This document shows positions 4,554 through 23,760 of a DNA stretch of 25,494 nucleotides, piece after piece; within the stretch, counting starts at the first letter, position 1, and the number at the start of each line of letters is the position of its first letter. Made by a program: the position numbers and the translations under genes. The notes beneath the pieces were generated by a model. That model was not told the DNA's origin and did not search any database. It was given only the letters and a program-made list of their open reading frames with translations. The stretch lies in the IMG/VR virus record IMGVR_UViG_3300008267_011834, positions 1-25,494 of that record. One strand, 5' to 3'. This DNA is from a virus.

Positions 4554-4574
4554 AACTTAATTTATTTTTGATTG

Positions 4575-4715
4575 TTATCCTTGTCCTACGCTAGGTTTTT
4601 TATAATTAGTTGCGTTTTTAGCTTTAGAAGTTTTTGTTTTAGCATGAACTCCTGGTCTTGTAACTTTAACTTTTTCTTTTTTAGCTACTGCGGTTTGTGT
4701 TTTAGTTTTTGCCAT
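4575..4715 (-). CDS. Small, highly basic hypothetical protein (46 aa)
   Basis: This frame begins MAKTKTQTAVAKKEKVKVTR and ends with ATNYKKPSVGQG. Nearly a third of its residues are Lys or Arg and there are almost no acidic residues. The RPGVHAKTKTSKAKNATNYKKPSVGQG type of tail resembles tiny basic proteins that I recall from marine T4-like phages, function unknown. It follows a 7-bp hairpin and an A-rich leader. Nucleic-acid binding is a guess from charge alone. Confidence 0.6.
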   Translation of the reverse strand: MAKTKTQTAVAKKEKVKVTRPGVHAKTKTSKAKNATNYKKPSVGQG

Positions 4716-4721
4716 TGAATG

Positions 4722-4743
4722 ATTGGGGTTTTTATACCCCAAT
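4722..4743 (-). promoter_or_regulatory. Intergenic hairpin upstream of the 46-aa gene
   Basis: A perfect 7-bp stem (ATTGGGG / CCCCAAT) with an 8-nt A/T loop sits between the glucosaminidase stop (4749) and the ATG at 4715. No U-tract follows on the minus strand, so it is not a classic intrinsic terminator. It could be an RNA-stability or processing hairpin, or could affect access to the start codon 6 nt downstream. Confidence 0.4.
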
Positions 4744-4748
4744 ACATA

Positions 4749-5312: not shown

Positions 5313-5327
5313 AACTTTTTTATTTGC

Positions 5328-5360
5328 GTGAATATACGAACAATAGTTCGGGTATCCAAA
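5328..5360 (-). promoter_or_regulatory. Bacteroidota-type promoter P3
   Basis: TTTG at 5360-5357 (minus strand) with GGATACC, a 20-nt spacer ending TTCG, then TATATTCAC at 5336-5328. It lies between the 101-aa gene (stop at 5362) and the glucosaminidase, giving a leader of roughly 15-20 nt (AAATAAAAAAGTT) before the ATG at 5312. Confidence 0.75.
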
Positions 5361-5361
5361 T

Positions 5362-5667
5362 TTATTTTATTACTTTTAAAGACTCTATGACTTTAGTGAT
5401 TTCAGCACATTTTTCATATAGTTCTTCTCTAACGTAGTATGGTAAATTTTCCTCTAATGTTTCAACAAAATGCTTACGTTCAACAGTAATATCATATATT
5501 TCGCCTTCTTCTAAGCAAGTAATAGATAAAACGTGTACGTGTTTTTTCTTTGAATTAACATTATCTAAAATACCTTCTACAATTGCTTGAGCAATTCTAA
5601 AGTCTTTGTTGTCTACTAACTCCTGAAATTCCTCAGTGTTATTAACTGTTATTTCTGTTGCTCTCAT
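5362..5667 (-). CDS. Hypothetical protein (101 aa)
   Basis: The protein begins MRATEITVNNTEEFQELVDN. It is acidic, with alternating helices and strands and a central His/Lys patch (KKKHVHVLSITC). No membrane segment, metal cluster or catalytic motif is evident. It follows the 62-aa gene by one base and precedes promoter P3, so it ends its transcription segment. Family not recognised. Confidence 0.65.
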   Translation of the reverse strand: MRATEITVNNTEEFQELVDNKDFRIAQAIVEGILDNVNSKKKHVHVLSITCLEEGEIYDITVERKHFVETLEENLPYYVREELYEKCAEITKVIESLKVIK

Positions 5668-5668
5668 A

Positions 5669-5857
5669 TTAAAATAAATCTAAAAATTTTGTGTTGATTT
5701 CTTTACCTTTTAATCTACTATTTTTTTCGTCTTTTTCTAACATTTTAGTAGTAAGATTTTCAAGGTGTTTGGATTTTTGGGCATCGTAGTCATTAACTAA
5801 CTTATCGTGCTTTTTGTTTTTACCCTTTTTGAGTAAAGGGATTCGTTTTGGTTTCAT
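5669..5857 (-). CDS. Small Lys-rich hypothetical protein (62 aa)
   Basis: This protein starts MKPKRIPLLKKGKNKKHDK and is very basic at the N-terminus and more balanced later, ending KFLDLF. It is likely helical from about residue 20. It overlaps the HTH/HNH-like gene by ATGA (start at 5857, upstream stop at 5854), which supports translation. No family is recognised. Confidence 0.6.
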   Translation of the reverse strand: MKPKRIPLLKKGKNKKHDKLVNDYDAQKSKHLENLTTKMLEKDEKNSRLKGKEINTKFLDLF

Positions 5858-6495
5858 ATTCTTGATATTAAATCTAACCCATCATCAACTGGTTTTGAAT
5901 CATATAAACCTAATTCTTTCAAACGTTGTTGAGTATAGTCGTCAACTTCCCAATCAACTTTTGATTCATTTTTGCTTACATGATCTTCTAGACCACCCAG
6001 CTGTTTGTCGGTAAATATATCTCCAATTTGTAGAAAATAATGATTGTAACATAACATTTCTAAATTTTCTAATCTATAATGCTGTTTATTACCATCTTTA
6101 AAATTTAAAATAAGAGGCATTTTATAATCTAATACTCGTCTTTCATGGAATCCACAAACAGAACATTCTTCTAATAAATAACCTTCTTGAATTAAGCGAT
6201 ATTTTATTTTAGCTGGATTGAATGATGATGGGTCGATTCTGCCTTCGATTAAATCTAATAATGCAAAATCCTTTCTTGGGTTACCGTTACTTAGGAATTT
6301 GGGAATCCCTTTACCACATTGGTTTTTATGTTTATCAAATAATACCTCACCGGTTTCAGCATCCTGGTAGAGTTTAGCCCATTTCTTAAAGTGAAGGTAA
6401 GAAACATTTAGGTAACGTGCTGCGGCTTTATTAGACTTTGTCTTATTCATTGCCGCCACTACCATTTCTTTAGATAGGGGTTTTGCTTTAGGCAT
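5854..6495 (-). CDS. Helix-turn-helix plus degenerate HNH-like protein
   Basis: This encodes 213 residues. Residues ~8-42 (VVAAMNKTKSNKAAARYLNV, then YLHFKKWAKLY) look like a helix-turn-helix. The C-terminal part has the HNH zinc scaffold C111-x2-C114 ... C149-x2-H152 and the usual PLxL...DGN..NYRLENLxxLCxN frame at 127-151. However, the segment normally reading L-D-H-I-D-G here reads L-N-F-K-D-G, so the catalytic His position is Phe132 and the preceding Asp is Asn. I therefore expect DNA binding but weak or no nuclease activity. It may be a regulator derived from a homing enzyme. It overlaps its neighbours by 1-4 nt. Confidence 0.7.
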   Translation of the reverse strand: MPKAKPLSKEMVVAAMNKTKSNKAAARYLNVSYLHFKKWAKLYQDAETGEVLFDKHKNQCGKGIPKFLSNGNPRKDFALLDLIEGRIDPSSFNPAKIKYRLIQEGYLLEECSVCGFHERRVLDYKMPLILNFKDGNKQHYRLENLEMLCYNHYFLQIGDIFTDKQLGGLEDHVSKNESKVDWEVDDYTQQRLKELGLYDSKPVDDGLDLISRI

Positions 6496-6806
6496 TATTC
6501 TTCTATTTTAACATCGCCTGGAGTTGGTAGATTATCATGTGAATCTTCATCTCCATTGTATTCTGCTTTAGGAGCACTAGAGGCAATTTTCCTCATTTTA
6601 TTTTCAGCGGCCATGTATTGTTGGTACTCATCGTGTTCCAAAAATATGGTTTCAACCCAAGTATGGTCACCTTCTCCTTTTAATAATGTTACTGCTCCTT
6701 TTTTCTGTACTGTTGAACACGGAACACATGTTACAGCATTTGGAATAATTTCTAATCGTTTTGGGTGGATTTGCTCACCACATCCTTTACAATATCTTAC
6801 ATTCAT
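6495..6806 (-). CDS. TraR/DksA-type C4 zinc-finger protein
   Basis: This encodes 103 residues. The N-terminus has C6-x2-C9 and C27-x2-C30 with the TraR/DksA-like text CKGCGEQIHPKRLEIIPNA followed by CVPC. The remaining ~70 residues are polar with an acidic tail (PTPGDVKIEE). DksA/TraR proteins act at the RNA polymerase secondary channel through a coiled coil, but a coiled coil is not evident here, so only the zinc finger is supported. A role in transcription or DNA binding is inferred. It starts in the AAAGTTATG context. Confidence 0.7.
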   Translation of the reverse strand: MNVRYCKGCGEQIHPKRLEIIPNAVTCVPCSTVQKKGAVTLLKGEGDHTWVETIFLEHDEYQQYMAAENKMRKIASSAPKAEYNGDEDSHDNLPTPGDVKIEE

Positions 6807-6811
6807 AACTT

Positions 6812-7183
6812 TTATTTTAATTCTATTTTTTTAATAAATTCCCACAGTTCTTCTACTGTCTCAATAAATATTTCTTCTTCGGTTTCCTTAATATGATCGT
6901 TTAGATTAATTGGAAGCACACTTCCATCCTCATCAAATCGTTCAAATAACCACCACAACATAATATCACCTTTCCATTCTCCATAGTGCATGTAAATTAA
7001 ATTTTCAATAACTATATAAAATGGTTCTTCATAATTTGATATACCTAAACCAAATTCACCTTCAATAACGTTAGAACGAACCCAACATTCATTTAATAAC
7101 CCTACAACTTCTACAAATAAATCTTTATCAGTTGGGTCTTTAGTACGTGACTTTATATTTAGGTGTTTACCAAAAGGTGTCAT
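6812..7183 (-). CDS. Hypothetical protein (123 aa)
   Basis: The protein begins MTPFGKHLNIKSRTKDPTDK. It is acidic and Trp/Tyr-rich in the middle (YMHYGEWKGDIMLWWLFERFDEDGS) with an acidic helical tail (EEEIFIETVEELWEFIKKIELK). The style resembles small conserved T4-like phage proteins of unknown function, but I cannot name a family. Its ATG overlaps the stop of the 52-aa gene upstream (ATGA). Confidence 0.65.
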   Translation of the reverse strand: MTPFGKHLNIKSRTKDPTDKDLFVEVVGLLNECWVRSNVIEGEFGLGISNYEEPFYIVIENLIYMHYGEWKGDIMLWWLFERFDEDGSVLPINLNDHIKETEEEIFIETVEELWEFIKKIELK

Positions 7184-7338
7184 ACAATCGTTATAATAGC
7201 GTATAATTTTAAAAATTCCTTAAGAGGCAACTGCTTCCGCCCAGCAAATATTTTAGCCGCTTGTAGACGTGATAATGTTACTGTGCGGTTAATTACTTCT
7301 TGATGTTTGTCGTAACGTGAATAATATCCGAATACCAT
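7180..7338 (-). CDS. Small hypothetical protein (52 aa)
   Basis: This short frame reads MVFGYYSRYDKHQEVINRTV and ends with LKLYAIITIV. The region LSRLQAAKIFAGRKQLPLKEFLKLY has the amphipathic helix-turn-helix look of small DNA-binding phage proteins, but this is only suggestive. It is supported by an ATGA overlap with the next gene and by the promoter-like P5 just upstream. Confidence 0.6.
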   Translation of the reverse strand: MVFGYYSRYDKHQEVINRTVTLSRLQAAKIFAGRKQLPLKEFLKLYAIITIV

Positions 7339-7344
7339 AATTGT

Positions 7345-7376
7345 GTAAATATAATAATAAGTATTTAAAAATCCTA
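7345..7376 (-). promoter_or_regulatory. Weak promoter-like sequence P5
   Basis: TATATTTAC at 7353-7345 on the minus strand matches the -7 box of P1 and P2. At the expected 20-nt distance there is TAGGAT (7376 downward) instead of TTTGGAT. It would separate the glycan block from the downstream small-gene block. The -7 box is good and the upstream box only partial. Confidence 0.45.
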
Positions 7377-9080
7377 GTTTATTATGAGAGAATTTTGATA
7401 TTCACTCATATGAATTATGTTTATTGTAAATATATCTAATTCAAATGTTCCTATATCTCCACTGTCTTTTATAATTTCTGAAAGTTGATATAAAATTTGA
7501 ATGTTTTGATTATTTAATTTAGATGCATCAAATGATACTAAAATATTGTTTTGCTTTTCATTATCATAAGGTTTAATACGCTCTTGAAGATCAAATTTAG
7601 TATTAGATTGTTCTTTTTGTATATAATCAGGAACAATTAACTGCATATCATCTTTAATATAAATTGTTGAACACCATGGTTCTAGTATCTCTAAATGAGG
7701 TAATCCACAATTGGATACTATAAAACCTACATCATATTTAGGAGGAATAATTGGTTTCATTAATGAATCATGTTTACAAAAATGACCCCATTTACGAATA
7801 AAATTACGAGTAGATCTTATATTTTGAGCTTCCCATTCTGAACTATTAGTTCCTGGAGTTGTTAATGTTGGGTTGAATCTAGAACCTCTACAAGTCATAT
7901 GATAAACACATCCTTCCCATGTTTGGAGAAATTTAACTCCATTTAATTGAAAACGATTAAAAATATCACTATCTTCTTTTGATTGAGGAGCATATAAAGG
8001 ATCATGACCACCAATTTCCTGGAAGTCAGATTTCATAAATGCCCAAGGAGCGAATACACCTTCTGTAGGTTGGTAATGTTTTGGTTTTAAATCATTTTTA
8101 AACCAATTTAAAAATTTATCTTCATCAAATTCTTCTGTTTCAATTCCAAAATCAGCAAGTATTTTTTCAGGTCCATCTGGGTGTAATGGTGGTTCGATTC
8201 TGGTTAATGATACAATTGTTTTTGGTGCAATGTATTTTGAAATTTCATTTAATGCGTTAGGACATAAGTACATATCAGCATGATAAATCATACAAATATC
8301 ATGTGTAGCTACTTCATTTACTAATTTATCATATAAAATAGTATGTCCTAAACGAGTTGGTCCTTCATTTCTAATTGCTTTAAAATAAGGATCTTTTTGC
8401 ATCATTTCTTGACACCATTCCCAAGTACCATCGTTACTAAAATCATCAGCTATACAAATTTCTGCTTCGTGATCCCCTTGATTTTTTCTTATAGCATTAT
8501 AAGACCATTTTAGATATTTAAGATTATTTCTAGAAGGTTGTATAAAACTAATTTTTATATTTGTACTTTTTTTATTTATTCTATCTAAAACTTCTTTTTT
8601 AGGTTTTAAAGCTACTATACTTTGACCTGATTGGACATAATCAATAACATCATACCATTTTTCAACAATAAAATATTGAGAACGTTGCCAATAATCATGA
8701 ATAAAGACAATACTATCTTCTTTTAAGTATGGTAATACTTTTTCAGCACACCATCCTCTACCACGACCATCTATTAAAACTCTATCAAATTTTTCTACTC
8801 CTAATTTATCAACAAAATCTAGGTATGTTTGTACTTGAGTTTTTTGGGTTGGGTCTGTTAGGGGTTTATCTAACTCTATTAAGTGATAATCTACATTATC
8901 CGGTGTTTCTTTTTTTACATTATCAAACCAACTTGGATCGTGTTCGATTGAATAATATTTTTTTACATATTTAGGAAATTCAGTAGTTGACCCTCCTGAA
9001 CCCCATTCTAACATAATGTGTGAAGGATCTAAATTTGATTTTATTAAATCAATTTCTTCGTTTGACATCCAAATTTGCAT
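7374..9080 (-). CDS. Fusion: class I methyltransferase-like + GT2 glycosyltransferase
   Basis: This encodes 568 residues. Residues 1-165 are methyltransferase-like: HIMLEWGSGGSTTEF (motif I), YYSIEHDPSWF (acidic ribose-binding residue), KFDRVLIDGRGRGWCAEKVL and DSIVFIHDYW. Residues ~175-400 are a family 2 glycosyltransferase: KISFIQPSRNNLKYLKWSYN, CIADDFSNDGTWEW and MIYHADMYLCP, where HAD takes the DxD-like metal position; later GGHDPLYAPQSKEDSD is typical of the acceptor side. Residues ~430-568 (YDVGFIVSNCGLPHLEILEP) are not recognised. The protein could methylate and transfer sugars on one glycan. It lies 2 nt behind another GT2 gene. Confidence 0.82.
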   Translation of the reverse strand: MQIWMSNEEIDLIKSNLDPSHIMLEWGSGGSTTEFPKYVKKYYSIEHDPSWFDNVKKETPDNVDYHLIELDKPLTDPTQKTQVQTYLDFVDKLGVEKFDRVLIDGRGRGWCAEKVLPYLKEDSIVFIHDYWQRSQYFIVEKWYDVIDYVQSGQSIVALKPKKEVLDRINKKSTNIKISFIQPSRNNLKYLKWSYNAIRKNQGDHEAEICIADDFSNDGTWEWCQEMMQKDPYFKAIRNEGPTRLGHTILYDKLVNEVATHDICMIYHADMYLCPNALNEISKYIAPKTIVSLTRIEPPLHPDGPEKILADFGIETEEFDEDKFLNWFKNDLKPKHYQPTEGVFAPWAFMKSDFQEIGGHDPLYAPQSKEDSDIFNRFQLNGVKFLQTWEGCVYHMTCRGSRFNPTLTTPGTNSSEWEAQNIRSTRNFIRKWGHFCKHDSLMKPIIPPKYDVGFIVSNCGLPHLEILEPWCSTIYIKDDMQLIVPDYIQKEQSNTKFDLQERIKPYDNEKQNNILVSFDASKLNNQNIQILYQLSEIIKDSGDIGTFELDIFTINIIHMSEYQNSLIIN

Positions 9081-9082
9081 AA

Positions 9083-9979
9083 TTATAAATCTAAATTAAA
9101 ATATTTCTTTGCGTAGTGTTTTCTTACTTCTGGGTAGAAATCTAAATCAGGGAGTTTGCGTTTCCAAATTCTACCGTCCTTAGATAACAATATTCCTTCA
9201 TTTCCTAATAATGAGGGATTACTAACAGGTTCCCATTTTAAATGATGAAATTCTACCCCAGTTAAATTATTACCTCTATCTAAACTACCACCTTCATTAT
9301 TTCTACTTCCAGCATCATCTTCTTGTCCTGTAATAGTAGATAATCCTATTACTTTGTGATTAGAATTTTCTGAGTTGCAGTAGTATGTAAAATTATCTTC
9401 TTGGTGGAATAATTCTTTTTTAGCTTCTATATAAGGTAAAATTGTATTAATATATTCTTGCGGGAATGGAATATGTTGTGCCCATGTTCCGTAAGGGGAA
9501 TAACCTAAACATTCAACTGTTCGTAAATACCAATCATCATCTTCCATACTAGGATAATAACGATATCTTTCATCCCACCAACCCATTCTTACTATTGTTT
9601 GTTTGTGAAAAACAACAGCATTCCAAGCATTTAAATGTATCTGTTCTAATTGAGGTTTTTCTTCTAAAATATTACTTAATACATCGAACCAATCTTCATC
9701 AAATAACATGTCATCACACGTCATTAACACCCAATCAGTTTCACTTTGAATAATGCCCTGATTCCATGCTTTAGTTAATCCTATATTGTCAGGACTATAA
9801 ATAAATTTTACATGAGGATGGTTTTGTTCTGCTTGTTTTACTTTTTCTAACTCTTCACCTGTTGTATTATTATCCCAAACGATAATATTAGGTACATTTT
9901 TTAAAGTATCTAAACATCTATTTAACCTAGATCCCCTATAATAACTTACAATAACAATTGTTATATCGTTTATATTCAT
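9083..9979 (-). CDS. Family 2 glycosyltransferase
   Basis: This 298-residue protein is a GT-A fold enzyme: ITIVIVSYYRGSRLNRCLDTL at the N-terminus, NIIVWDNNTTGEELEK (nucleotide-binding Asp), IYSPDNIGLTKAWNQGI and WVLMTCDDMLFDEDWFD with C-D-D as the metal-binding DxD equivalent (about residue 90). YYPSMEDDDWYLR near 165 is the usual ED motif for the catalytic base. It transfers a sugar from a nucleotide donor to an unknown acceptor. It overlaps the upstream methyltransferase by ATGA and is followed closely by the fusion gene. Confidence 0.9.
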   Translation of the reverse strand: MNINDITIVIVSYYRGSRLNRCLDTLKNVPNIIVWDNNTTGEELEKVKQAEQNHPHVKFIYSPDNIGLTKAWNQGIIQSETDWVLMTCDDMLFDEDWFDVLSNILEEKPQLEQIHLNAWNAVVFHKQTIVRMGWWDERYRYYPSMEDDDWYLRTVECLGYSPYGTWAQHIPFPQEYINTILPYIEAKKELFHQEDNFTYYCNSENSNHKVIGLSTITGQEDDAGSRNNEGGSLDRGNNLTGVEFHHLKWEPVSNPSLLGNEGILLSKDGRIWKRKLPDLDFYPEVRKHYAKKYFNLDL

Positions 9980-10536
9980 TTTTTAATAACTGATAATGAA
10001 GGGAAATTAGGATCTAGTAATTGATAGTTTGTTTGTTCCTTAATTGAATTAATAGGTGTAGCGTTATATTTAATCATCCATTCTACATTATCTCTTTCTT
10101 CGCTTCCACCTTCAAACAAAACAATACTTCCATTATTAATTTGATTAGAAAGAATTTCATATGTTTTTAAAATAGTATCTCCAGTATTAGAAATATCTAA
10201 ATGCATCATATCAAATTGTTCTGGGTTGTTTAGCCATTCATAATAATCCATTTGGATAAATTCAACATAATCTTCTACACCATATTTTTTAACATTTTCT
10301 ATAGTTTGTTGGATTGTTGAATGTTTATATTGATAATTTTCCCATAGGTCATAACATTTAAGTTTACCTTGACCTAATTCTTTTAAAGCTAATCCAATAG
10401 CTACTGTTGAATAACCATATAAACAACCAAATTCAACTATTAATTTTGGTTTATGTTCTAAAACATAGTTATAAATTGTTTTTCCAATATCATTAATTTG
10501 ATATGATGATTCTATTTGTGGGTTTGTGTAGTTCAT
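9976..10536 (-). CDS. Class I SAM-dependent methyltransferase
   Basis: This encodes 186 residues. LIVEFGCLYGYSTVAIGLAL (about 33-52) is motif I with the Methyltransf_24 style, KLKCYDLWENY gives the acidic motif II residue, EFIQMDYYEWL and FDMMHLDISNTGDTILKTYE follow, and GSIVLFEGGSEERD is the late strand. The substrate is not readable; by context it is probably a sugar or a glycan end group. ATGA overlaps on both sides place it firmly in the operon. Confidence 0.85.
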   Translation of the reverse strand: MNYTNPQIESSYQINDIGKTIYNYVLEHKPKLIVEFGCLYGYSTVAIGLALKELGQGKLKCYDLWENYQYKHSTIQQTIENVKKYGVEDYVEFIQMDYYEWLNNPEQFDMMHLDISNTGDTILKTYEILSNQINNGSIVLFEGGSEERDNVEWMIKYNATPINSIKEQTNYQLLDPNFPSLSVIKK

Positions 10537-11166
10537 AGTGTTGTATTTTCTCTAGTGTGTAAAAAATCATTATTAGATTTAAAAGGTTTTAATTTAAACC
10601 CAGCTTTTATAAAATCATTTGTAAAACTGGTTTCATAATTGTGTTCTCCTTGATATAAATCATTTGGTATTAAAATATTAGGATTATTAATTTGTTCTAT
10701 ATTAGGAGTTTGTAGATATTCTGGTATTGTTTTTATTACTTGTTTTATTGTTTTTGTTGATGTTAGTCCAATACCACCATGAGCATGAGCAGCTATATGT
10801 GAATCAGTAATATAACCATTTTCTAGTGGATATGTACCATGTCCAAATTTATGATTGTAATCTAAAGCAGCAATAAATCCGGCATCATCATCACTTTCAA
10901 AGTCATTAATTAACTTTTGAGTTACATTGTCATTTAAAACAATAATATCGTCTTCACTAAAAAACCAATAATCATATTCATCTTGAAGTAAATAAAAAGC
11001 ATATTTATAAGATCCAAAACTAAGGTCTGAACTGATTAGTGGGCGCAGGATCAACTTTACAATGGTTTTCAATTTGTTGTTTAAAAAGATCCATTGTTAT
11101 TTCTTTAGTTTTAGGATAATGTCTCCTATCTCCAAAATAAAAAGCTAATACTTTTGCTACTTTCAT
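10533..11166 (-). pseudogene. Broken glycosyltransferase-like gene (frame change near 11045)
   Basis: The ATG at 11166 overlaps the GNAT stop by ATGA and opens a frame reading MKVAKVLAFYFGDRRHYPKT, running to a stop at 11020. The rest of the gene lies in another frame (to 10533) with RPLISSDLSFGSYKYAFYLL followed by DEYDYWFFSEDDIIVLND, where SEDD is an acidic metal-site-like motif. Both parts look protein-like. The joint at about 11041-11050 has no plausible linker, and I would expect some tens of residues between NHCKVDP and RPLISSDLSFG, so an internal deletion that also shifts frame is more likely than a single-base error. The second frame has its own ATG at 11072, but that form would lack the N-terminal strand. 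Confidence 0.7.
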
Positions 11167-11585
11167 ATTTCGTTTTTTACATATTCCATTTCAATATATA
11201 ATTTTTCTCTAATATACTTAAAATTTTTTGTTTCTACAAATCCTAATTTAATATAGAGATTTTTAGCAAAATTATTATCAAAAACCCACAATTTAGCATA
11301 CTTTTTATCTTTTAAATATTCTAAAAAAGCTTGTTTTGCATAACCTTTTTTTCTAAAATTCATATGAATATCTATTCCAACATATTCATTATCTATTCTT
11401 ATATATCCAACAGGAGTATTATCTACTTCTATAATAAACCAAGGAGAATTTAAAGTTTTAAACCATTTTGTACATTGTTCAATACTAAAAACAGAATTAT
11501 TTTCTAAATTCTCCCTAGTTGATTCATGGTTTCTTACTTCAAGTAAAAAAGGTAAATCTAACTCATTTAACTCTCTTATTACCAT
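11163..11585 (-). CDS. GNAT-family N-acetyltransferase
   Basis: This encodes 140 residues. It begins MVIRELNELDLPFLLEVRNH, a typical GNAT first strand and helix; GYIRIDNEYVGIDIHMNFRKKGYAKQ carries the acetyl-CoA pyrophosphate loop (RKKGYAKQ, about 82-89), and NFAKNLYIKLGFVETK is the last conserved helix-strand. Next to a sugar aminotransferase, the likely job is N-acylation of an amino sugar, as with PseC/PseH or FdtB/FdtC pairs; the pairing is established, the substrate is inference. It overlaps the aminotransferase by 7 nt and the following gene by ATGA. Confidence 0.85.
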   Translation of the reverse strand: MVIRELNELDLPFLLEVRNHESTRENLENNSVFSIEQCTKWFKTLNSPWFIIEVDNTPVGYIRIDNEYVGIDIHMNFRKKGYAKQAFLEYLKDKKYAKLWVFDNNFAKNLYIKLGFVETKNFKYIREKLYIEMEYVKNEI

Positions 11586-12752
11586 CCTTTTTTAATACAA
11601 TTAACAATATATTCTCTTTCCTCTTCGGTTATCCACCAACCTACAGGAATAGAAACTACTTTTCCAATTGTTTTATCTAATGTTGGTAGAGCTGTTTTAA
11701 ATTCTCTAACACAAGAATGTTTATCATTACGTTCATGAACCTGAGATACTACAATATTACACTCTTTCATATGCTTCATAAATTTATCTCTATCTTCTAC
11801 TAATAGACTATAAATCCAGAATGCTGATTCTCTATCATTATGACGAGTTAATAATGTTACTCCGTTTACATCTTTAAGATGTTGATCGTAATAAGCGGCG
11901 TTTGATTGGTGCTTTTTAATAATATCATCAGCATGTTTTAAATTTTCAATACCAACAGTAGCACAAATATCATTCATATGGAATTTAAATCCCCATTCTT
12001 CAATATCAGCTTCACATCTAAAATCTTTACGGTTTGAATTTCTATCAATTCCATACCAACGAAGCAATTTAGATCTATTATATAATTCTTGGTGTGGTAA
12101 AGTTAATAATCCACCATCAATAGCAGTAATATGTTTAATTGCTTGAAGAGAATACATAACCATATTACCATGATTACCTAAATTTTTACCTTTATATTTT
12201 GAACCAAATGAATGAGCTCCATCTTCAATTACTGCTGGTTTGAAACCATGTAGTTGTTGTGCTTTTTCTTGTATTTGTTTTATACGATCTAAATCATTTG
12301 GATAACCACCCCAATGTACTAATATAATTGCTTTGGTTTTAGACGTTATTTTACGCTCTAAATCATCTAAATCCATATTAAGTGTAGTAGGATCAATATC
12401 TGTTAGCTAAAATTGGGAAGTTTGATGCTGTACATGTTAAAGCTGTAGCTAATACTTCATCTCCATCTTGAATACCAGGCCATTTTTGATCCCAATAAGC
12501 AAGCCCCTCAAAATTTTTAACAGTTTCTGATGGTCTTTTTAATAGATGTAATGCTAAATGAAGAGCAGATGTACCTGAGTTAAGTGTAATTACATGATCA
12601 AAATCTAAATAATTTTGGATTTGTTTTTCTAATTCATCTACTTTAGGACCTTGTCCTATGTAGCCACTATTTAATATTTTCCCAACTTCTTCAGCTGCTG
12701 TTGGGGCCATGTGCACTTTAAATAATTGAATTGGTTCTTTAGGTTTTTTCAT
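11579..12752 (-). pseudogene. Broken DegT/DnrJ/EryC1-type sugar aminotransferase
   Basis: Two frames carry the two parts of one protein. The first (12752-12393, 119 codons) holds LFKVHMAPTAAEEVGKILNS, SGYIGQGPKVDELE, the PLP-phosphate loop LNSGTSALHLAL and ALTCTASNFPILAN. The second (to 11579) continues DIDPTTLNMDLDDLERKIT, then VIEDGAHSFGSKYKG and the PLP lysine motif YSLQAIKHITAIDGG, ending PVGWWITEEEREYIV. The break is at about 12393-12405. In relatives some 7-8 residues ending IKWAD/V join LAN to DxDP; here only about one extra base remains, suggesting a deletion near 20 nt. Intact members transfer an amino group to a keto-sugar nucleotide. Confidence 0.85.
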
Positions 12753-12754
12753 AA

Positions 12755-13378
12755 TTATAATGTATTATAATAATTGTTTTGTTTTTCTTGTCTTTCTATT
12801 GTTTTTGGGTGATACAAGCAAAATTCTTCTTCTGCTGGTAAGTGGGTAAATATTTTAGCACCATCAATTCGCTCATGAACTTTATTTACCCAAGTTATAT
12901 TTTGAGTTTTTCTGTATAATCGAGATTGATAATCTGGAAAATTAACCCAACCATTTTCGTCTACCATCCATCTCCATTGTTTAATATGTTCTGGGGTAAT
13001 ACCTTCTACTGTGTTAATTCTAGGAATCCAATATAAATCTACATCTGGGTTTGATTCTAATATTTCGGGTAATAAAGCAATGAGTTGTTCATTTGGATAC
13101 TCATCAGCATCAATTTGAAATATAAAATCACCATCACATAGACTAGCTAAAGTATTTTTCCAATCAGCAAAATGATTATAAAATGGTTTTGCAATCCATA
13201 AAAATTCACTATTTGCTGAATGTGTTCTAAGGTATTCCTCTACTTGTTTAGAACCATTTGTCTCATCTAACAAAATAACTATTTCATCTTGAGAACGTTT
13301 ATAATTTAGTAAAAGACTTACTAAGCGTTGTATTTCGCTTAGCTCGTCTTTAACTGTTATTGCGTAACTTATCTTCAT
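12755..13378 (-). CDS. Family 2 glycosyltransferase
   Basis: This encodes 207 residues from the ATG at 13378 (MKISYAITVKDELSEI). An ATG seven codons upstream would overlap the previous gene and adds a non-typical leader. Motifs are EIVILLDETNGSKQVEEYL, LASLCDGDFIFQIDADEYPN with the DxD metal site (DADE, about residue 93-96), and a late KVHERIDG. This looks like the WaaE/KdtX-like branch of GT2 enzymes, which act in LPS-core or capsule-type sugar transfer. It is shorter than bacterial relatives (about 250). The stop lies 2 nt before the aminotransferase start. Confidence 0.85.
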   Translation of the reverse strand: MKISYAITVKDELSEIQRLVSLLLNYKRSQDEIVILLDETNGSKQVEEYLRTHSANSEFLWIAKPFYNHFADWKNTLASLCDGDFIFQIDADEYPNEQLIALLPEILESNPDVDLYWIPRINTVEGITPEHIKQWRWMVDENGWVNFPDYQSRLYRKTQNITWVNKVHERIDGAKIFTHLPAEEEFCLYHPKTIERQEKQNNYYNTL

Positions 13379-13379
13379 A

Positions 13380-13835
13380 TTACTCAGGTAATACACCAAT
13401 GTACGAAAGTGCTTCTATATAGTCACGCTTAGTAAACATTTTTAGTGTAGTCATATCCATTCTCCATTCGTAAAATTTACCTTTTTGATTTGGAATTGGA
13501 TATTTTTCTTTTTCTTCTTCATTAACAGGTACTGCTTTTACTGCTGCCCATCCCCAATCGGTTTTAGATGGACCATTAGCAAATATCATACCTTGTTGAG
13601 GTAAATTAATGGTTGAAGGCATCCAAATAATTTCATCTTCATCTTTTTCAAGCAAATCTTTATAAAGTTCAGGTAAAATTGAAATTTGTTCTTGATAAAA
13701 ATCACTACCTTCTTTCATCAGTGAGTTTGTTTGAAAACCACATCCGTAGCAAAAATAAGTACTAAGTTCTTGATTTACTTCTTCAACATAGCAAGCATCT
13801 GAGCCGCAGTGTTTACAAATTATTAAGTTATCCAT
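13380..13835 (-). CDS. Zinc-ribbon hypothetical protein
   Basis: This 151-residue protein begins MDNLIICKHCGSDACYVEEV and has two Cys pairs, C7-x2-C10 and about C29-x2-C32 (YFCYGCGF), forming a zinc ribbon. The remainder (WMPSTINLPQQGMIFANGPS, then WGWAAVKAVPV and YEWRMDMTTLKMFTKRDYIEAL) is Trp-rich and looks like a small folded domain of unknown role. It sits inside the glycosyltransferase run, overlapping the GT4-like gene by 8 nt. It could be a scaffold or regulator, but that is not shown. Confidence 0.7.
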   Translation of the reverse strand: MDNLIICKHCGSDACYVEEVNQELSTYFCYGCGFQTNSLMKEGSDFYQEQISILPELYKDLLEKDEDEIIWMPSTINLPQQGMIFANGPSKTDWGWAAVKAVPVNEEEKEKYPIPNQKGKFYEWRMDMTTLKMFTKRDYIEALSYIGVLPE

Positions 13836-15120
13836 TTGTTTTTTGTAATTTAGGTAATTCTACTTTTTTTAATTGAGGTAGTTTTAATTCTACCTGAGTC
13901 GGGAAATCTGGAATGTATTGGGTAAGTAATGTATCTGTTTTTTCTGCCATTTTATCCCAATTAAATTCTGTTTTAGATTTATACGCTTGGCGATTAGCTT
14001 TGTCAGTATAATTTTTATAATTTTCAAATACATCTTTTAAATAATGACCTATTTGACTATGATCTGGTGAAAACCATTGTGAATCAGAAAGTAAAAATTG
14101 GTTTGCAGTATTTGGATGTACATTAGTTAATTGACCTCCAATTAAATTAGTAAACTCAGGATTTAAGAAATCCATTTGTCCACTCCATCCTGTAGTAATT
14201 AATGGTTTTTTAACTACTGTAAATTCAAGTAATGGACGACCAAAACCTTCACCTTTAGTTAAGCTAACCATAGCTTTTACTTTAGAATGATTATAAATTT
14301 CATTCATTTCTTCGTCTGTAAATTCACCATGTAATAGATAAACTTTAGGGAGATTAGTTGAGTTTACTGTTTTACGAATTAACTTAATTTTCTTTAAAAT
14401 TTCTTCTCTATCAATGTACGATGAACCTACTTGAGATGTTTTTAGAATTAAAGCTGGTTTTTTGGTTTTATTTTTAAATGTTTCATAGAATGCTTTAACT
14501 AATAAACCTACGTTTTTTCTATCTTCACCCATATCACCTTGCATCCAGTGACCTACAAACAAGTAAGCAAAATCTTCTTTAATATTAATATCAAGAGAAC
14601 ATGGGGTATTAAGTACTTTGTAAATATCTGTATTAACACCTTCAAATAATACTTCGATTGGTTTTTCTAATTTAACTACTCCTTCTAAAGCATTAGTTTG
14701 TTTATTTCTTTTTTCAAATTGAGAATCTTGAAATACTTTTTTAGAATGTTCAGATGAAACAATATTTAAATCCATTCTATTACAACCTTCAATCCATTCA
14801 GCAGCACAAACTGTGCTTTCAATACCAGCTGTAAAACCAATATTATATTTTCCTACAGGTTGAAATTCATTCGGTACAGTTACCTGAGCCCAAATTTCTG
14901 GTTGTTGGTTTAATTGATTATTAGTTAATACTAAATCTAATAGGAATGCCCATTCTGGATTGCTTTTACAAAATCCAAATGGAGTAGCACCCCAACGTTG
15001 TGATAATAGTTTAACATTATATTTATCTGTTTTAATAATGGCTTTAATTAAATCCCTTGAACGAGCACCGTAGCCACTAAAGGTGTCAAATGGGGAACTT
15101 ATAATAAATGTTGGTTTCAT
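13828..15120 (-). CDS. GT-B glycosyltransferase, GT4-like
   Basis: This encodes 430 residues. The N-terminal domain starts FIISSPFDTFSGYGARSRDL with the glycine-rich loop typical of GT4 enzymes. The C-terminal donor-binding domain has FEGVNTDIY, YLFVGHWMQGDMGEDRKNVG, VYLLHGEFTDEEMNEIYNHS and KGEGFGRPLLE, giving the E-x7-E signature for nucleotide-sugar binding. A Lys/Pro-rich tail (LKLPQLKKVELPKLQKTNG) is unusual and may be an interaction peptide. Donor and acceptor are unknown. It lies one base after the preceding GT-B gene. Confidence 0.88.
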   Translation of the reverse strand: MKPTFIISSPFDTFSGYGARSRDLIKAIIKTDKYNVKLLSQRWGATPFGFCKSNPEWAFLLDLVLTNNQLNQQPEIWAQVTVPNEFQPVGKYNIGFTAGIESTVCAAEWIEGCNRMDLNIVSSEHSKKVFQDSQFEKRNKQTNALEGVVKLEKPIEVLFEGVNTDIYKVLNTPCSLDINIKEDFAYLFVGHWMQGDMGEDRKNVGLLVKAFYETFKNKTKKPALILKTSQVGSSYIDREEILKKIKLIRKTVNSTNLPKVYLLHGEFTDEEMNEIYNHSKVKAMVSLTKGEGFGRPLLEFTVVKKPLITTGWSGQMDFLNPEFTNLIGGQLTNVHPNTANQFLLSDSQWFSPDHSQIGHYLKDVFENYKNYTDKANRQAYKSKTEFNWDKMAEKTDTLLTQYIPDFPTQVELKLPQLKKVELPKLQKTNG

Positions 15121-15121
15121 C

Positions 15122-16567
15122 TTAATATAACAATTTATGATTTATAACTCTATCAGGAACTTCATTGCAATCAATTAGTTCAAATTTTTCTCTTGGTTTC
15201 CAAGTACTAAACAATGTATCAAATGCTTCAATAATTCTTTCGCCTTGTTTTTCACCTGTAAATCCGGCTTCATTTCCTGTAGCCCATTCTCTACCTTTTA
15301 AACCTCTAGCTTTACGTTCTTCTTTACCTAAATCATAAACAGCTTTAATTTGTTTAGCAGCATCTTCTGATTCACATCTATCATCATAAATGTAAGGTGT
15401 TGGAGGTGAACCTACAATTGATCTAGAGGTTGGATAAACTGGGAATGCCCATTCACCATGTTTTTTAATTGTACCTCTATGGTTTGAAGGGAAGTCAGCA
15501 TCAAAATCAATCCAAGTACCATCTTCAAATTCAAAACGCATTTGATCTTGCATACCACCTGTTACGTTAGCAATAATAGGATTCCCTACTAATAACGCTT
15601 CAGTTAAACTTAATCCCCATCCTTCATTTGATGTTAATTGAATCTGGCAATTTGTACTGTTGTACAACAAATTCATTTGGTAATTATTAAATACTTGATT
15701 TGTATAAACAACATTATATTGCTCACCATTCAATAATAATTCTTGTACTGCTGGTAGATCTGTTCCATGATCACTTACTTTTTCAGTATGAAGTAACAAA
15801 CAACATTTTTTAGCTTGTTCAATAGGTAATTGATCAATAAAATGTCTATAAGCTAACATTGTATCTGGAATTTGTTTGCGTCGAATATTTCTAGAGTTAA
15901 AGAATAAAACAAACTCATATTCTTTTCCATCAAACAATTGTTTTTTAAATTCTTGAAGTTCGCTCCATTTTTCATGTTTTTCATCAATAGGGAAAATTAA
16001 TTCACTATTTAATCCATGAGGAACATAACGGATAACTTTATTATTAGCTTTATCGTCTAATACCAGTTTATTAATGTTTACAGTTTGTTTAGAAATTCCC
16101 ATCAATAAATCACACGCTTCATAATAAGGTTTATTATATAACGGTGCTGGATAATCATCCCAAATATTTAAGTAAGCAATTGGAAGTGATTTACGAATTT
16201 CATTTTCCATAGCAAATAACCAAACAAAATAACGTGGATCAGTAATCAACATTATAGCATCTGGTTTTTCTAACTCAATAATATTTCTTAAAATATCTGG
16301 GTTTCCATAATCATTTACTGGGTACATTGTAACAGATGAATCTGTTAAACCTGTTGTTTCGTTTGTTGATTGAGATAAATCTAAACGTTTACCTTGTTCT
16401 GGGTGATTGATAGCTCCCCCAAGATTAACCCAATTAAAATGTTGAGATGTTTGGATTACTACTTCTCTTCCTACTGTTGCTACTCCTGAATGGACTCTAA
16501 TATCATCACAGATAAGTAGAATTTTTTTACGCTGCTCTGGTGGCAGATATTTAAAACTATTATTCAT
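15122..16567 (-). CDS. GT-B glycosyltransferase (GT1/GT4-like)
   Basis: This 481-residue protein begins with ILLICDDIRVHSGVATVGRE (N-terminal Rossmann domain with a Gly-containing loop). FVLFFNSRNIRRKQIPDTML starts the second domain, and SNEGWGLSLTEALLVGNPII near 315-335 gives the E-x7-E donor-binding signature, followed by GGMQDQMRFEFEDGTW. This is a retaining GT-B architecture of the GT4 kind. It is the first of the two GT-B enzymes and is separated from the ribbon-helix-helix gene by 21 nt. The product is unknown. Confidence 0.88.
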   Translation of the reverse strand: MNNSFKYLPPEQRKKILLICDDIRVHSGVATVGREVVIQTSQHFNWVNLGGAINHPEQGKRLDLSQSTNETTGLTDSSVTMYPVNDYGNPDILRNIIELEKPDAIMLITDPRYFVWLFAMENEIRKSLPIAYLNIWDDYPAPLYNKPYYEACDLLMGISKQTVNINKLVLDDKANNKVIRYVPHGLNSELIFPIDEKHEKWSELQEFKKQLFDGKEYEFVLFFNSRNIRRKQIPDTMLAYRHFIDQLPIEQAKKCCLLLHTEKVSDHGTDLPAVQELLLNGEQYNVVYTNQVFNNYQMNLLYNSTNCQIQLTSNEGWGLSLTEALLVGNPIIANVTGGMQDQMRFEFEDGTWIDFDADFPSNHRGTIKKHGEWAFPVYPTSRSIVGSPPTPYIYDDRCESEDAAKQIKAVYDLGKEERKARGLKGREWATGNEAGFTGEKQGERIIEAFDTLFSTWKPREKFELIDCNEVPDRVINHKLLY

Positions 16568-18764: not shown

Positions 18765-19175
18765 CTATTTTTTCCACTTATTTTTCATTACTAACATAGC
18801 AATAATACCATAATTAGCAATATCTAAAAAACTATCAATCATTGCTTCACCTTCAACATAATTTTTACCATCACGTTTAATAAGATTTTTTAAACGGTTG
18901 ATTTTATCATTACAACGAAGCCAAATACCTGTAAGTGATAATTTGATATCTTCTGGATCTTCAAGATTAGTGCCTAATGAAATATTCCCTAAACCATAAT
19001 CCATCATTTTTTTAGCAAATAATTCATACTGTTCTTGTTGAGTTTCTTTCCAAGCTTCGGCTAATGTTGGATAAGTTTTTTCGAAATCAGCAACTGCTTT
19101 TTTTGTTCCTGTTGGATCTATTTCTGATGCACGGTTAAATGTTACACCACCCCATATTTCTGCGTTTTTTGTCAT
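18765..19175 (-). CDS. DUF1599 / Nmad1-like protein
   Basis: This 136-residue protein contains QYELFAKKMMDYGLGNISLG and LSLTGIWLRCNDKINRLKNL followed by a helical tail ending DIANYGIIAMLVM. This matches my memory of DUF1599, also named nucleotide-modification-associated domain 1, an all-helical MazG-like fold. Domains of this kind are predicted to act on or sense nucleotides, sometimes in phages with modified DNA bases. Activity is not proven and no base-modifying enzyme is recognised nearby. It overlaps the gp62-like gene by ATGA. Confidence 0.75.
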   Translation of the reverse strand: MTKNAEIWGGVTFNRASEIDPTGTKKAVADFEKTYPTLAEAWKETQQEQYELFAKKMMDYGLGNISLGTNLEDPEDIKLSLTGIWLRCNDKINRLKNLIKRDGKNYVEGEAMIDSFLDIANYGIIAMLVMKNKWKK

Positions 19176-19594
19176 ATAACTAGGTCTTTAATTAATTTTT
19201 TAATTTCTTTTTCTTCGATACCACATTGGAAAAGAATATGTTCAACACCTTCTCTTCGTAAAATATACGTATACTCTTCTGCTTCTCCAAGCCCACACGT
19301 AAAGTAGTCAGCAATATGAACTAGTAATGAATCAGATGTTTTTTTACGAGTAGATTTAATGTATTTTAAAAACATTTTCTTTTTTGGGATCATAGATTTG
19401 TATGTGTTATAGATGGTTTCTTTTTCAGTATAAGGGAATTTTTGTACAACATTTGTTATATCAATATATCCCTCATACATACTAAGAAATCTATGAACCA
19501 TGTAAGAATTGAACGAAGATTGTTGATCTTCGGTAAAACTCTTCCAATCTTTTTTATCGTAAGTAATCTGATTCAACCAGTCAAATATTGTCAT
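19172..19594 (-). CDS. 62: Clamp loader small subunit, T4 gp62-like
   Basis: This encodes 140 residues. The N-terminus MTIFDWLNQITYDKKDWKSF and VHRFLSMYEGYIDITN match the short gp62 proteins of marine T4-like phages as I remember them (pattern FDFLNxINxxKKD ... NRxLS). It then has IPKKKMFLKYIKS, which fits the basic run seen in that family. With gp44 it forms the 4:1 clamp loader that opens the gp45 ring. It is shorter than T4 gp62 (187). Its position two genes behind the thioesterase and near gp44 supports the call; sequence divergence is high. Confidence 0.75.
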   Translation of the reverse strand: MTIFDWLNQITYDKKDWKSFTEDQQSSFNSYMVHRFLSMYEGYIDITNVVQKFPYTEKETIYNTYKSMIPKKKMFLKYIKSTRKKTSDSLLVHIADYFTCGLGEAEEYTYILRREGVEHILFQCGIEEKEIKKLIKDLVI

Positions 19595-19595
19595 T

Positions 19596-19850
19596 TTACT
19601 CTTGTTCTGAGGCGAATTCTTCTCTTAATTCTTTAGGTAACATTTCTAGTAATACTTTACCAGTAGCAATATCATAAAACACAGGAATTGGAACTACAGC
19701 ATCTTCAGATGTACCTGTAATAAATTTAGAGATTTTACGTAAAACTACTGCTTGACCAAATAATTGGTTACCTTCAGGAGATTTAATTGCTTGAGATTTA
19801 TTCAAGTCAACATTAATGTTCATTTGTTGGGGTTGTTGTTGTTTGTTCAT
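19596..19850 (-). CDS. Small hypothetical protein (84 aa)
   Basis: The protein begins MNKQQQPQQMNINVDLNKSQ, with a Gln-rich leader, then AVVLRKISKFITGTSEDAVV and PIPVFYDIATGKVLLEMLP, and an acidic end. An internal ATG (MNINVDLNK) is an alternative start at 19823. The middle recalls a small zinc-ribbon protein family of marine T4-like phages (RKxSxxxSPTG...xPIPVF), but the cysteines of that family are absent here, so the link is weak. It lies one base before the gp62-like gene. Confidence 0.6.
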   Translation of the reverse strand: MNKQQQPQQMNINVDLNKSQAIKSPEGNQLFGQAVVLRKISKFITGTSEDAVVPIPVFYDIATGKVLLEMLPKELREEFASEQE

Positions 19851-20034
19851 TTTTATATTTTTTATAATCTAAATAAAATCCAATTGCTACAATAATATTC
19901 ATACCAAAGGACATAAGGATTTCATATATGTCTTGGTACACATTCATAGTTAAGTGAACATGTCCTACCATCCAGAACGGTATGGACAAATTACTTGATA
20001 TCCAAGTTAAAAGATAAACTATGAAATGTTTCAT
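19813..20034 (-). CDS. Small membrane protein (73 aa)
   Basis: Two hydrophobic segments are visible: about 3-23 (HFIVYLLTWISSNLSIPFWM) and about 39-55 (EILMSFGMNIIVAIGFYL), followed by a charged and Thr-rich tail (DYKKYKNEQTTTTPTNEH). It probably spans the inner membrane twice. It starts in the AAAGTTATG context and overlaps the thioesterase by 4 nt and the next gene by 38 nt. No family is recognised; being an inner membrane protein within a replication operon is unusual. Confidence 0.6.
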   Translation of the reverse strand: MKHFIVYLLTWISSNLSIPFWMVGHVHLTMNVYQDIYEILMSFGMNIIVAIGFYLDYKKYKNEQTTTTPTNEH

Positions 20035-20432
20035 AACTTTGAGTCTGGTGTTTTAAACATTCTTTTAACCTGTTCTGAGATAGGAATAGGTGTTCCTTCA
20101 TCGTCTACTCGAACAAAAGTCATATGTGTTTTTAGGATAATTTCTTCATCACCTCTAAACACATTGTATGTTCTAGCTTCAACTTCAAACGTAGCTGATG
20201 TATTGCCTATTTTAGTCATATCAGCATATATTTTTACTAATTGACCTTCTTTAGCTGCTTTTTCAAATACACATTTATCTAAGGCAATGGTAATCATATT
20301 TTTACTATGACATTTTTCCATTGCATAAGCAGCTACGGCGGCATCAATCCAACTCAATAATTTTCCACCAAATAGATTTCCATGAAATCCTAAATCGAGT
20401 TTTTTAACAGGGTGAGTTGAAATTAAGTCCAT
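20031..20432 (-). CDS. Hotdog-fold acyl-CoA thioesterase
   Basis: This encodes 133 residues. FHGNLFGGKLLSWIDAAVAA (17-36) is the classic acyl-CoA hydrolase signature (hotdog helix with Gly-Gly and the Asp of the active site, as in YciA/BFIT-type enzymes), followed by VKIYADMTKIGNTSATFEVE and MTFVRVDDEGTPIPI. Family members hydrolyse acyl-CoA to free fatty acid and CoA in the cytoplasm. The gene is complete and is joined to gp44 and the small membrane protein by 1-4 nt overlaps. Its purpose in a replication operon is not known; lipid or acyl-sugar metabolism during infection is possible. Confidence 0.88.
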   Translation of the reverse strand: MDLISTHPVKKLDLGFHGNLFGGKLLSWIDAAVAAYAMEKCHSKNMITIALDKCVFEKAAKEGQLVKIYADMTKIGNTSATFEVEARTYNVFRGDEEIILKTHMTFVRVDDEGTPIPISEQVKRMFKTPDSKL

Positions 20433-21364
20433 TATTTTATAAGTTGAGGTTTTGCTAATTCAATTAAACGACTAATTAAAGCCATACAATTGATTTCTTT
20501 ATCGATTCTAAAATTTGATTGATAGGTGTATTCATTAATGTAAATTGCAACCATACCCTCGTTACCGGAAGCATATTCGCTTGCGTTATCATACAGGTAT
20601 CTATACAGTTCTTCAAAATCATTTACATTAGCATCAGCAATAATTTGTCTGATTGTTCTCCAATTAGGTGATTTTGCTTGTAGTTCTTTTACAATTTGAA
20701 CCATATAACTGTTAGATACAAGCAATGATTTATCCATTGTAATTTTACCATCATGGTTACTTAATTGTAGTGTATTAAGTACTTTACGAAGATCAGGATA
20801 AAACTGGTTTACAACTGCTTTTAAATCATTAATATCATATTCAGCATTTTCTTTCTCTAAAATACCAGCTACGTGTTTTGCTACATCTGTTTTTGTAGGT
20901 GGAACAATTTTAAGTACCTGACAACGTGATTGAAGAGGATCAATAATACGTTCAACATAATTACAAGTTAAAATAAATCTTGTAGTACGTGAATATGTTT
21001 CAATAATATTCCTTAACGACGCCTGAGCTTGTATAGTAAGGAAATCAGCCTCGTCCAAGATGATAACTTTGAGCGGCTTAAAAGAAGCAACAGACGCGAA
21101 CCCTTGTACCTTATCTCTAATAGTTTCAATACCACGCTCATCGGAAGCATTAATATAGATATAATCGCAATCAAGATTACCAACAATGAGCTTAGCAAGA
21201 GTAGTTTTACCAGTACCAGCTGGGCCATAGAAAATAAAATTTTGAATGTCATTCTGGTTTAGGTATTGTTGAATTGTTTTTTTAATGTTTTCGTTGCCGA
21301 CATAATCTTCTAATACTTTGGAACGATAACGTTCAACCCAAAGTGTATGTTCTTTTCTACTCAT
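20432..21364 (-). CDS. 44: Clamp loader large subunit, T4 gp44/RFC-like AAA+ ATPase
   Basis: This encodes 310 residues from ATG 21364 (MSRKEHTLWVERYRS); an ATG six codons earlier is less likely. Motifs in order: WVERYRSKVLEDYVG (box II), Walker A FYGPAGTGKTTLAK (46-59 region), Walker B VIILDEADFL (100-109), sensor 1 RFILTCNY, and the arginine-finger motif SRC (146-148). The last ~100 residues match the helical collar. It hydrolyses ATP to load the gp45 clamp at primer-template junctions. It overlaps the upstream gene by 8 nt and shares one base with the thioesterase downstream. Confidence 0.93.
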   Translation of the reverse strand: MSRKEHTLWVERYRSKVLEDYVGNENIKKTIQQYLNQNDIQNFIFYGPAGTGKTTLAKLIVGNLDCDYIYINASDERGIETIRDKVQGFASVASFKPLKVIILDEADFLTIQAQASLRNIIETYSRTTRFILTCNYVERIIDPLQSRCQVLKIVPPTKTDVAKHVAGILEKENAEYDINDLKAVVNQFYPDLRKVLNTLQLSNHDGKITMDKSLLVSNSYMVQIVKELQAKSPNWRTIRQIIADANVNDFEELYRYLYDNASEYASGNEGMVAIYINEYTYQSNFRIDKEINCMALISRLIELAKPQLIK

Positions 21365-21614
21365 AGTCTCCGTATAAATCAAATTTTTTAGGTGGTTCAG
21401 GAATAATTTCTACATCCTCTGTTGTGATAATATACAAATTTCCTTTCATAGGTTCAAGTCTAAATGCTTGAGGTTTAGTAGTTGCTTGTTGATACCAAGC
21501 ATTTAAGGCTTCAGTTAATGAATCGTGAACCTTCCCACCGTTAAGAAGTTGCCATCTGTCCCCAGGAGGAACTCTGTCAGCTATTTTAATATTTTTTTCT
21601 ACTTCTTTTTTCAT
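21357..21614 (-). CDS. Small hypothetical protein (85 aa)
   Basis: The protein starts MKKEVEKNIKIADRVPPGDR, has WQLLNGGKVHDSLTEALNAW and a C-terminal strand region with a Pro/Asp-rich end (PEPPKKFDLYGDYE). It starts in the CAAGTTATG context and overlaps both neighbours by 4-8 nt. I do not recognise a family. Its place between the chaperonin and clamp-loader genes suggests only co-expression. Confidence 0.6.
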   Translation of the reverse strand: MKKEVEKNIKIADRVPPGDRWQLLNGGKVHDSLTEALNAWYQQATTKPQAFRLEPMKGNLYIITTEDVEIIPEPPKKFDLYGDYE

Positions 21615-21802: not shown

Positions 21803-23464
21803 TTAAAACATTCCCCCCATACCCCCGAATCCAGGAGCATCATCTTTTTTCTCTTCAGGTGTGTCAACCACAACACACTCTGTTAATAGAATTGTACCTG
21901 CTACTGAAGCTGCATTTTGAAGTGCTTCACGAGTTACTTTAGCTGGATCGATAATACCTGCTTCTTTCATATTAACAAATTCATTTGATTTAAGGTCAAA
22001 ACCTTGCCAAATAAGTTTTTTGTCATATTTTTCAGCATCACCAACTTTCATTTTATCAACAAATCCATAAATGATAGCATCATCATAACCTGCGTTTTGA
22101 AGAATTTTCTTAAATGGAGCAGCACATGCTTTGTATACAATTTGTTGACCTAATTTATGGTCAGCTGAGCATTTAGTACAAGCATCATTAATTGCTTCTC
22201 TTGAAAACAATAATGCAGATCCACCACCTGGTACAATACCTTCTTCAAGTGCTGCTTTTGTAGCATGAAGTGCATCATCAACACGGTCTTTCTTTTCACG
22301 CATTTCTGTTTCAGTGTTTCCACCTACGTGTACAATAGCTACACCACCGATGAATTTAGCTAAACGCTCTTGCAATTTTTCACGTTCGTAAGGCGATTGT
22401 GCTTTTTCGATTTGTGATTGCAATTCTTCAATACGTGCTGAAATAGCTTCTTCTGTACCTTTACCATCAACGATAGTTGTATTATCTTTGTTTACTGTTA
22501 CAACACGTGCTTCACCAAACCATTTCCAATCAAATTTATCAAGTTTCATACCTTTTTCAGTACTGAATACTTGACCACCAGTCATGATAGCGATATCTTC
22601 AAGCAACAATTTACGACGGTCTCCAAAGTCAGGGGCTTTAACAGCTACAACTTTCAAAATACCACGAGCTTTGTTTACGATCAAAGTAGCAAGCGCTTCA
22701 CCTTCTACGTCCTCAGCAATAATCAACAATGATTTATTTTGAGCAGATACTGCTTCCAAAATAGGCAACAATTCTTTTACTTGAGTAAATTTCTTATCTG
22801 CGATCAAAATCAAAGCATCTTGGATACTTGTACTCATACTATTGTTATCTGTAACGAAGTAAGGTGATTTGTAACCACGATCAAACTGCATACCTTCTAC
22901 TGTTTCAAGATATGTTTCACCTGATTTAGATTCTTCAATGAATACAACACCTTCACGACCTACTTTTTGCATTGCTGTAGCAATCAATTCACCTACTTCA
23001 GGATCATTGTTTGATGAGATCGTAGCTACTTGTTTAAGTTGCTCTTCAGATGAAATATCTTCTTTAATATTTGAACGAAGGTGATGTAATACTTGAGTAA
23101 CTGCTTTATCAATACCACGCTTAATTTCTACAGCGTTAGCACCATTATTAAGATAAGTCAAACCAGCATTTACCATTTCACGAGCCAACAAAGTTGAAGT
23201 TGTTGTTCCATCACCTGCTAAATCAGCAGTTCTAATAGCTGCTTGTTTAACCATCTGTACACCCAAATCTTCAATATTATCTTCAAGTGTAATTGATTTT
23301 GCTACTGTAACACCATCTTTGGTACTTTGAGGTACACCTTGACTGGCAATAACAACATTTCGACCATTAGGTCCAAGTGTCGATGTAACGGCATCTGCTA
23401 GTTTATCAATACCAGTTGCTAATTTTCTACGGGCCTCAGGGCCAAATTCAATAATTTTACTCAT
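21803..23464 (-). CDS. groEL: Chaperonin GroEL (60 kDa), full length
   Basis: This encodes 553 residues from ATG 23464 ([20 protein letters not shown]); a longer upstream frame overlapping groES is rejected. All core motifs are present: [19 protein letters not shown] (Asp50), [12 protein letters not shown] (84-95, nucleotide site with Asp85), [10 protein letters not shown], the apical domain, [27 protein letters not shown], and a GGMGGMF tail. It forms the folding cage with GroES. The equatorial, intermediate and apical parts are all complete, so it should be active. Parts of the coding region look less AT-rich than the neighbours, which would fit a bacterial origin. Confidence 0.97.
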
Positions 23465-23466
23465 AA

Positions 23467-23760
23467 TTAATTTTGATTTACTTTTGCTAAAACTTGATTT
23501 TCTGGTCCAATCCAATATTCATCACCTTCGAATTCTAATTTACTGAATCCCATAGTAGGTAATACAACAGTATCTCCTACACTAAGAACAGTTTTAATGT
23601 AATCCCCAGTTACTGAATAATAACCTTCCCCAACTGCCACTACTTCGGCAAGTTTGTTTTTTTCATTTCCCAGATCTGGGACAATGATTCCTCCATAAGA
23701 GGTTTCTTCTGCTTCGATCGGTTTTACGATAACTGCATTGTAGATTGCTTCTAACTTCAT
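23467..23760 (-). CDS. groES: Co-chaperonin GroES
   Basis: This encodes 97 residues, normal length. It has the N-terminal strand LEAIYNAVIVKPIEAEE, the mobile loop EETSYGGIIVPD (about 17-28) that contacts GroEL, VVAVGEGYYSVTGDYI, VGDTVVLPTMGFSKLEFEGD and the closing ENQVLAKV. It caps the GroEL ring. Unlike T4, which carries only the distant co-chaperonin gp31, this phage has a bacterial-type GroES next to its own GroEL, two bases apart, so the pair is probably made together from promoter P4. Confidence 0.95.
   Translation of the reverse strand: MKLEAIYNAVIVKPIEAEETSYGGIIVPDLGNEKNKLAEVVAVGEGYYSVTGDYIKTVLSVGDTVVLPTMGFSKLEFEGDEYWIGPENQVLAKVNQN

Follow-up and report, generated by a model that had tools for sequence, protein, structure and literature searches.

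The window, which is the whole 25,494-nt stretch of the virus record IMGVR_UViG_3300008267_011834, belongs to a T4-like phage of Bacteroidota. On its minus strand lies a complete open reading frame (ORF) with an ATG start and no internal stop (20031-20432(-), 133 aa), which Pfam, PHROG and PDB matches and an AlphaFold2 model mark as a putative acyl-CoA thioesterase of the hotdog (4HBT) superfamily, YciA/ACOT type. The ORF sits in an insertion site whose ancestral left border is a gp44-type clamp loader subunit (20432-21382(-); phrog_168, 1e-79) and whose ancestral right border is a small hydrophobic protein of 73 aa (19813-20034(-)). An 84-aa ORF that is conserved in relatives (19596-19850(-)) follows, and then a gp62-type clamp loader subunit (19172-19594(-); phrog_225, 8e-15), the third ORF downstream of the thioesterase. 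The first-pass annotation had reported a complete hotdog thioesterase between gp44 and gp62, and the intact ORF, its 4HBT match and its flanks bear this out. It had also called the gene "fused" into the operon by overlaps of 1-4 nt. The overlaps are exactly 1 nt upstream (gp44 stop TAA and thioesterase ATG, TAATG) and 4 nt downstream (thioesterase stop and start of the 73-aa ORF, ATGA), an arrangement suggestive of translational coupling, but the ORFs are separate and "fused" is a loose word for them. The "two-helix membrane protein" named in the same annotation does have two stretches of moderate hydrophobicity (Kyte-Doolittle peaks 1.4 and 1.6), but its identity as a membrane protein is only plausible.

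Other features of the window were recorded alongside. GroEL and GroES are encoded together just upstream of gp44 (21803-23760(-)), an arrangement conserved in relatives, and a 136-aa ORF matching DUF1599, "nucleotide modification associated domain 1" (18765-19175(-)), is kept after gp62. A long block at 1983-16567(-) contains glycosyltransferases, methyltransferases, a GNAT acetyltransferase, a DegT aminotransferase and a PfkB-type kinase which by eye is like the heptose kinase domain of HldE. The block reads as a cassette of surface-sugar genes carried by a T4-like phage. Its DegT-type sugar aminotransferase is split over two frames of 119 and 265 aa (11579-12752(-); profile positions 7-60 and 100-359), which may reflect a frameshift, a small deletion or an assembly error.

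The thioesterase matches Pfam 4HBT (PF03061) with E=2e-15 and 57 bits against a cut-off of 20.6, and phrog_18230 with E=2e-22. All of its aligned phage homologues (35/35) match 4HBT as well. The closest solved structures in a PDB profile search are acyl-CoA hydrolases, and a PDB search using a cellular relative as the query found no nearer one. The AlphaFold2 model, at a mean pLDDT of 90.9, is confident and hotdog-like: residues 23-41 form a long central helix and the strand order is that of a hotdog, so that the predicted topology agrees with the 4HBT superfamily. The NCBIfam YciA equivalog (PRK10694) scored 33.2 bits, far under its curated cut-off of 162. Pairwise dN/dS has a median of 0.127 (0.05-0.26 for pairs with the window copy). 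The gene is under strong purifying selection and, because dN/dS is low, the protein is taken to be maintained by selection.

A scan of bacterial genome contigs with the single thioesterase sequence detected no relatives, but an alignment-based scan of bacterial genomes detected 99. The best 80 of these (L141-L220) were kept, and almost all have records titled Bacteroidota; one carries the title Azovibrio, which is probably due to misbinning. L141, which has a B12-type ribonucleotide reductase next to it, has the appearance of a phage contig that ended up in a metagenome-assembled genome through binning. The cellular relatives have unrelated and varied genomic neighbours. They are the nearest known kin of the window protein (40-57% identity) and share its altered motif D-[IL]-G-x-H-x-N-x-[FY]-GG, differing from it in their cellular loci and varied neighbours. 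In a tree limited by few columns and long branches, the 35 window-type phage sequences formed one group (support 95/95), and the copy of Flavobacterium phage vB_FspM_immuto_2-6A (immuto) paired with L142, a cellular copy from marine Bacteroidetes (96/92). That pairing suggests more than one exchange between hosts and phages. The phage gene thus appears to be host-derived, drawn from this Bacteroidota cellular subfamily.

With YciA/HI0827-type thioesterases (TE6; also ACOT7 and ACOT12) the window protein has in common the 4HBT hotdog, its length, the GG-x6-D motif region, the catalytic Asp and Gly, and the PDB profile matches; it differs from them in having Gly for the partner Asn, in its low identity and in the equivalog score. 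D30, G22 and G23 are invariant across 40 aligned phage sequences. D30 aligns with the catalytic Asp of the PDB homologues, the acid that corresponds to D44 in HI0827 and D213 in ACOT7 (PMC2698920), and its distance of 8 from G22 equals the Gly-acid spacing of characterised hotdog thioesterases (PMC13114782). In several hotdog thioesterases an Asn or Gln also takes part, placed 15 residues ahead of the acid (ACOT7 N24, hTHEM2 N50/D65, SaPaaI Q32/E47). ACOT7 N24 works with the Asp of the other domain, and SaPaaI Q32 is essential, as the Q32A mutant is inactive (PMC2698920, PMC13114782). At this position, whose equivalence to ACOT7 N24 was read off PDB sequence alignments, glycine (G15) replaces the partner Asn of TE6 enzymes in 35/35 window-type phage copies, accompanied by invariant H17 and N19. 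Among the best 80 of the 99 cellular relatives, G15 is found in 80/80 (79 by direct count; L164 also reads DLG after correction of a one-residue offset).

Since G15 is common to the cellular subfamily, it is an inherited trait and not decay. Phage-specific decay of the active site was rejected on the same ground and on the low dN/dS. The first-pass annotation had proposed that loss of active-site residues in close homologues would count against its reading; at the family level the Asp and Gly stand, but the partner Asn is absent, an absence inherited from the cellular subfamily. With the partner Asn/Gln replaced by G15, activity and substrate cannot be assumed. The uniform G15 and the H17 and N19 that go with it in the phage clade would fit a catalytically altered hotdog CoA-binding protein, one that cleaves another thioester or has no role beyond binding or sequestering CoA or acyl-CoA. 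We consider this unlikely, but a serious alternative: D30 (acid) and G22 (oxyanion) do not vary, and the active-site residues listed for the hotdog enzymes 1Q4U and 2FS2 are only a Gly plus an acid (PMC13114782).

Annotated thioesterases also occur in described phages. The "hydrolase/thioesterase" of immuto is likewise a phage hotdog protein (60% identity), found at another genomic position. The "acyl-CoA thioesterase" of Xanthomonas phage XacN1 (40% identity) and the thioesterase of Stenotrophomonas phage RAS14 (35% identity) also lie at other positions, and these more distant phages retain Asn at position 15. A phage-borne thioesterase is therefore already a known kind of gene. What is notable here is the record of mobility together with one departure in the active site (G15).

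The first-pass annotation had recommended a survey of the 44-62 interval in related phages. Across 80 gp44 loci in viral contigs, the conserved gene order is groES-groEL-p62-p85-gp44-(73-aa hydrophobic ORF)-(84-aa ORF)-gp62. The same insertion, a thioesterase between gp44 and the hydrophobic ORF, is present at 12/80 of these loci but absent from 68/80; 11 of the 12 are on contigs that also belong to the set collected by thioesterase similarity, and the two sets are not independent. Where the thioesterase is absent, gp44 and the hydrophobic ORF mostly overlap by ATGA. The site is empty in L062-L067, which have a gp44 95% identical to that of the window; there TAA and ATG are just three bases apart. 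Elsewhere the gap is filled by other genes: a 213-aa ORF and then a CorA-like protein in L088, a 218-aa ORF in L132 (by eye related to that of L088), an FkbM methyltransferase in L135 and a 61-63-aa ORF in L101 and L107. From these gene orders the gp44 junction appears to behave as a permissive, insertion-prone cargo site.

The proposal that the thioesterase is coupled to the clamp loader and assists replication draws on its position and the overlapping ORFs only. Against it are the 68 gp44 loci without the gene, its presence at other sites and the unrelated ORFs that fill the same junction in other phages. It was rejected as extremely improbable, largely refuted by the empty sites together with relocation, and the first-pass annotation's reading of the gene as part of the clamp-loader operon goes with it. 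A link to the membrane protein fares no better: most relatives without a thioesterase still have the hydrophobic ORF after gp44, and a partnership was rejected since this ORF is ancestral and independent.

Sequence identities at the junction are discordant. The gp44 proteins of L004 and L081 are 97.7% identical and their thioesterases at that junction 65.4%; between the window and contig 3300035670_009774 the values are 77.3% for gp44 and 87.4% for the thioesterase. Over eleven contigs the two identities are barely correlated (r = 0.14). The thioesterase therefore seems to have been swapped and moved independently of its neighbours. Differing cargo ORFs (methyltransferases, CorA-like, short ORFs) were observed on both flanks of gp44 in L088, L101, L132, L135, L136 and L118.

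A relative of the thioesterase was found in 54 viral contigs. It lies at gp44 in 11 of them, and L081, found via gp44, adds one. In the remaining contigs it lies beside queE plus thioredoxin, a phosphoribosyltransferase (PRT) or folE, beside a radical-SAM-like gene, beside thyA, or elsewhere. The role in glycan change or lysis suggested in the first-pass annotation is not supported. In contigs which show both sites (these are genome fragments), the gene is never at gp44 and queE together: it is at gp44 in G002, G003 and G007, after queE in G009, G018 and G019, and at neither in G004 and G006. Likewise, in L008 and L011 it is found at gp44 but is missing after queE, and the reverse holds for L012, L013, L015 and G009. 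The 268-kb viral contig IMGVR_UViG_3300032296_003307 (G021) contains a second thioesterase copy (182506-182874(-), 50% identical).

A specialised enzyme of a phage nucleotide or 7-deazaguanine pathway would explain why queE lies directly upstream in 14/54 viral contigs, with queE, PRT or folE nearby in several more, and why the immuto copy is near queD/queE and thyA. This reading is improbable, as the gene also occurs at gp44 and in other surroundings that lack these genes, the cellular relatives adjoin unrelated genes, and G004 and G006 have queE with no detectable thioesterase anywhere on the sequenced contig. The pattern points instead to cargo that Bacteroidota phages carry as a one-gene cassette, for which gp44 would be just one of many insertion points. 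The gene shows the features of host-derived cargo, or an auxiliary metabolic gene: homologues in cells, a patchy distribution, purifying selection and empty sites.

The reading we favour, and consider likely, is that T4-like Bacteroidota phages carry this gene as host-derived cargo and that it encodes a working thioesterase of the YciA/ACOT (TE6) type, whose putative substrate is a cytosolic acyl-CoA. The product would be a small soluble protein, most likely a dimer or hexamer, in which D30, aided by the G22 backbone, would activate water and cleave acyl-CoA to free acid and CoA. Insertion would have taken place exactly between gp44 and the next ORF, preserving overlapping start/stop junctions, and the gene is probably co-transcribed with whichever operon received it. 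The probable benefit is that the infected cell's acyl-CoA/CoA or fatty-acid pools are adjusted. A search of the open-access literature turned up no characterisation of a phage acyl-CoA thioesterase and no enzyme assay for this subfamily. A bolder idea, to which we give a rather low probability, is a Bacteroidota-specific hotdog subfamily with a rebuilt site (G15/H17/N19/D30), acting on something other than ordinary acyl-CoA and used repeatedly as a phage takeover enzyme. If true, the target of that enzyme would be new.

The locus illustrates clearly how one metabolic gene appears to travel as a cassette, inserted with precision at ORF junctions that tolerate it, among T4-like phages from the environment. 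It cautions that operon position in these phages is a poor guide to function. Acyl-CoA/CoA metabolism may be a recurrent and little-studied target of Bacteroidota phages.
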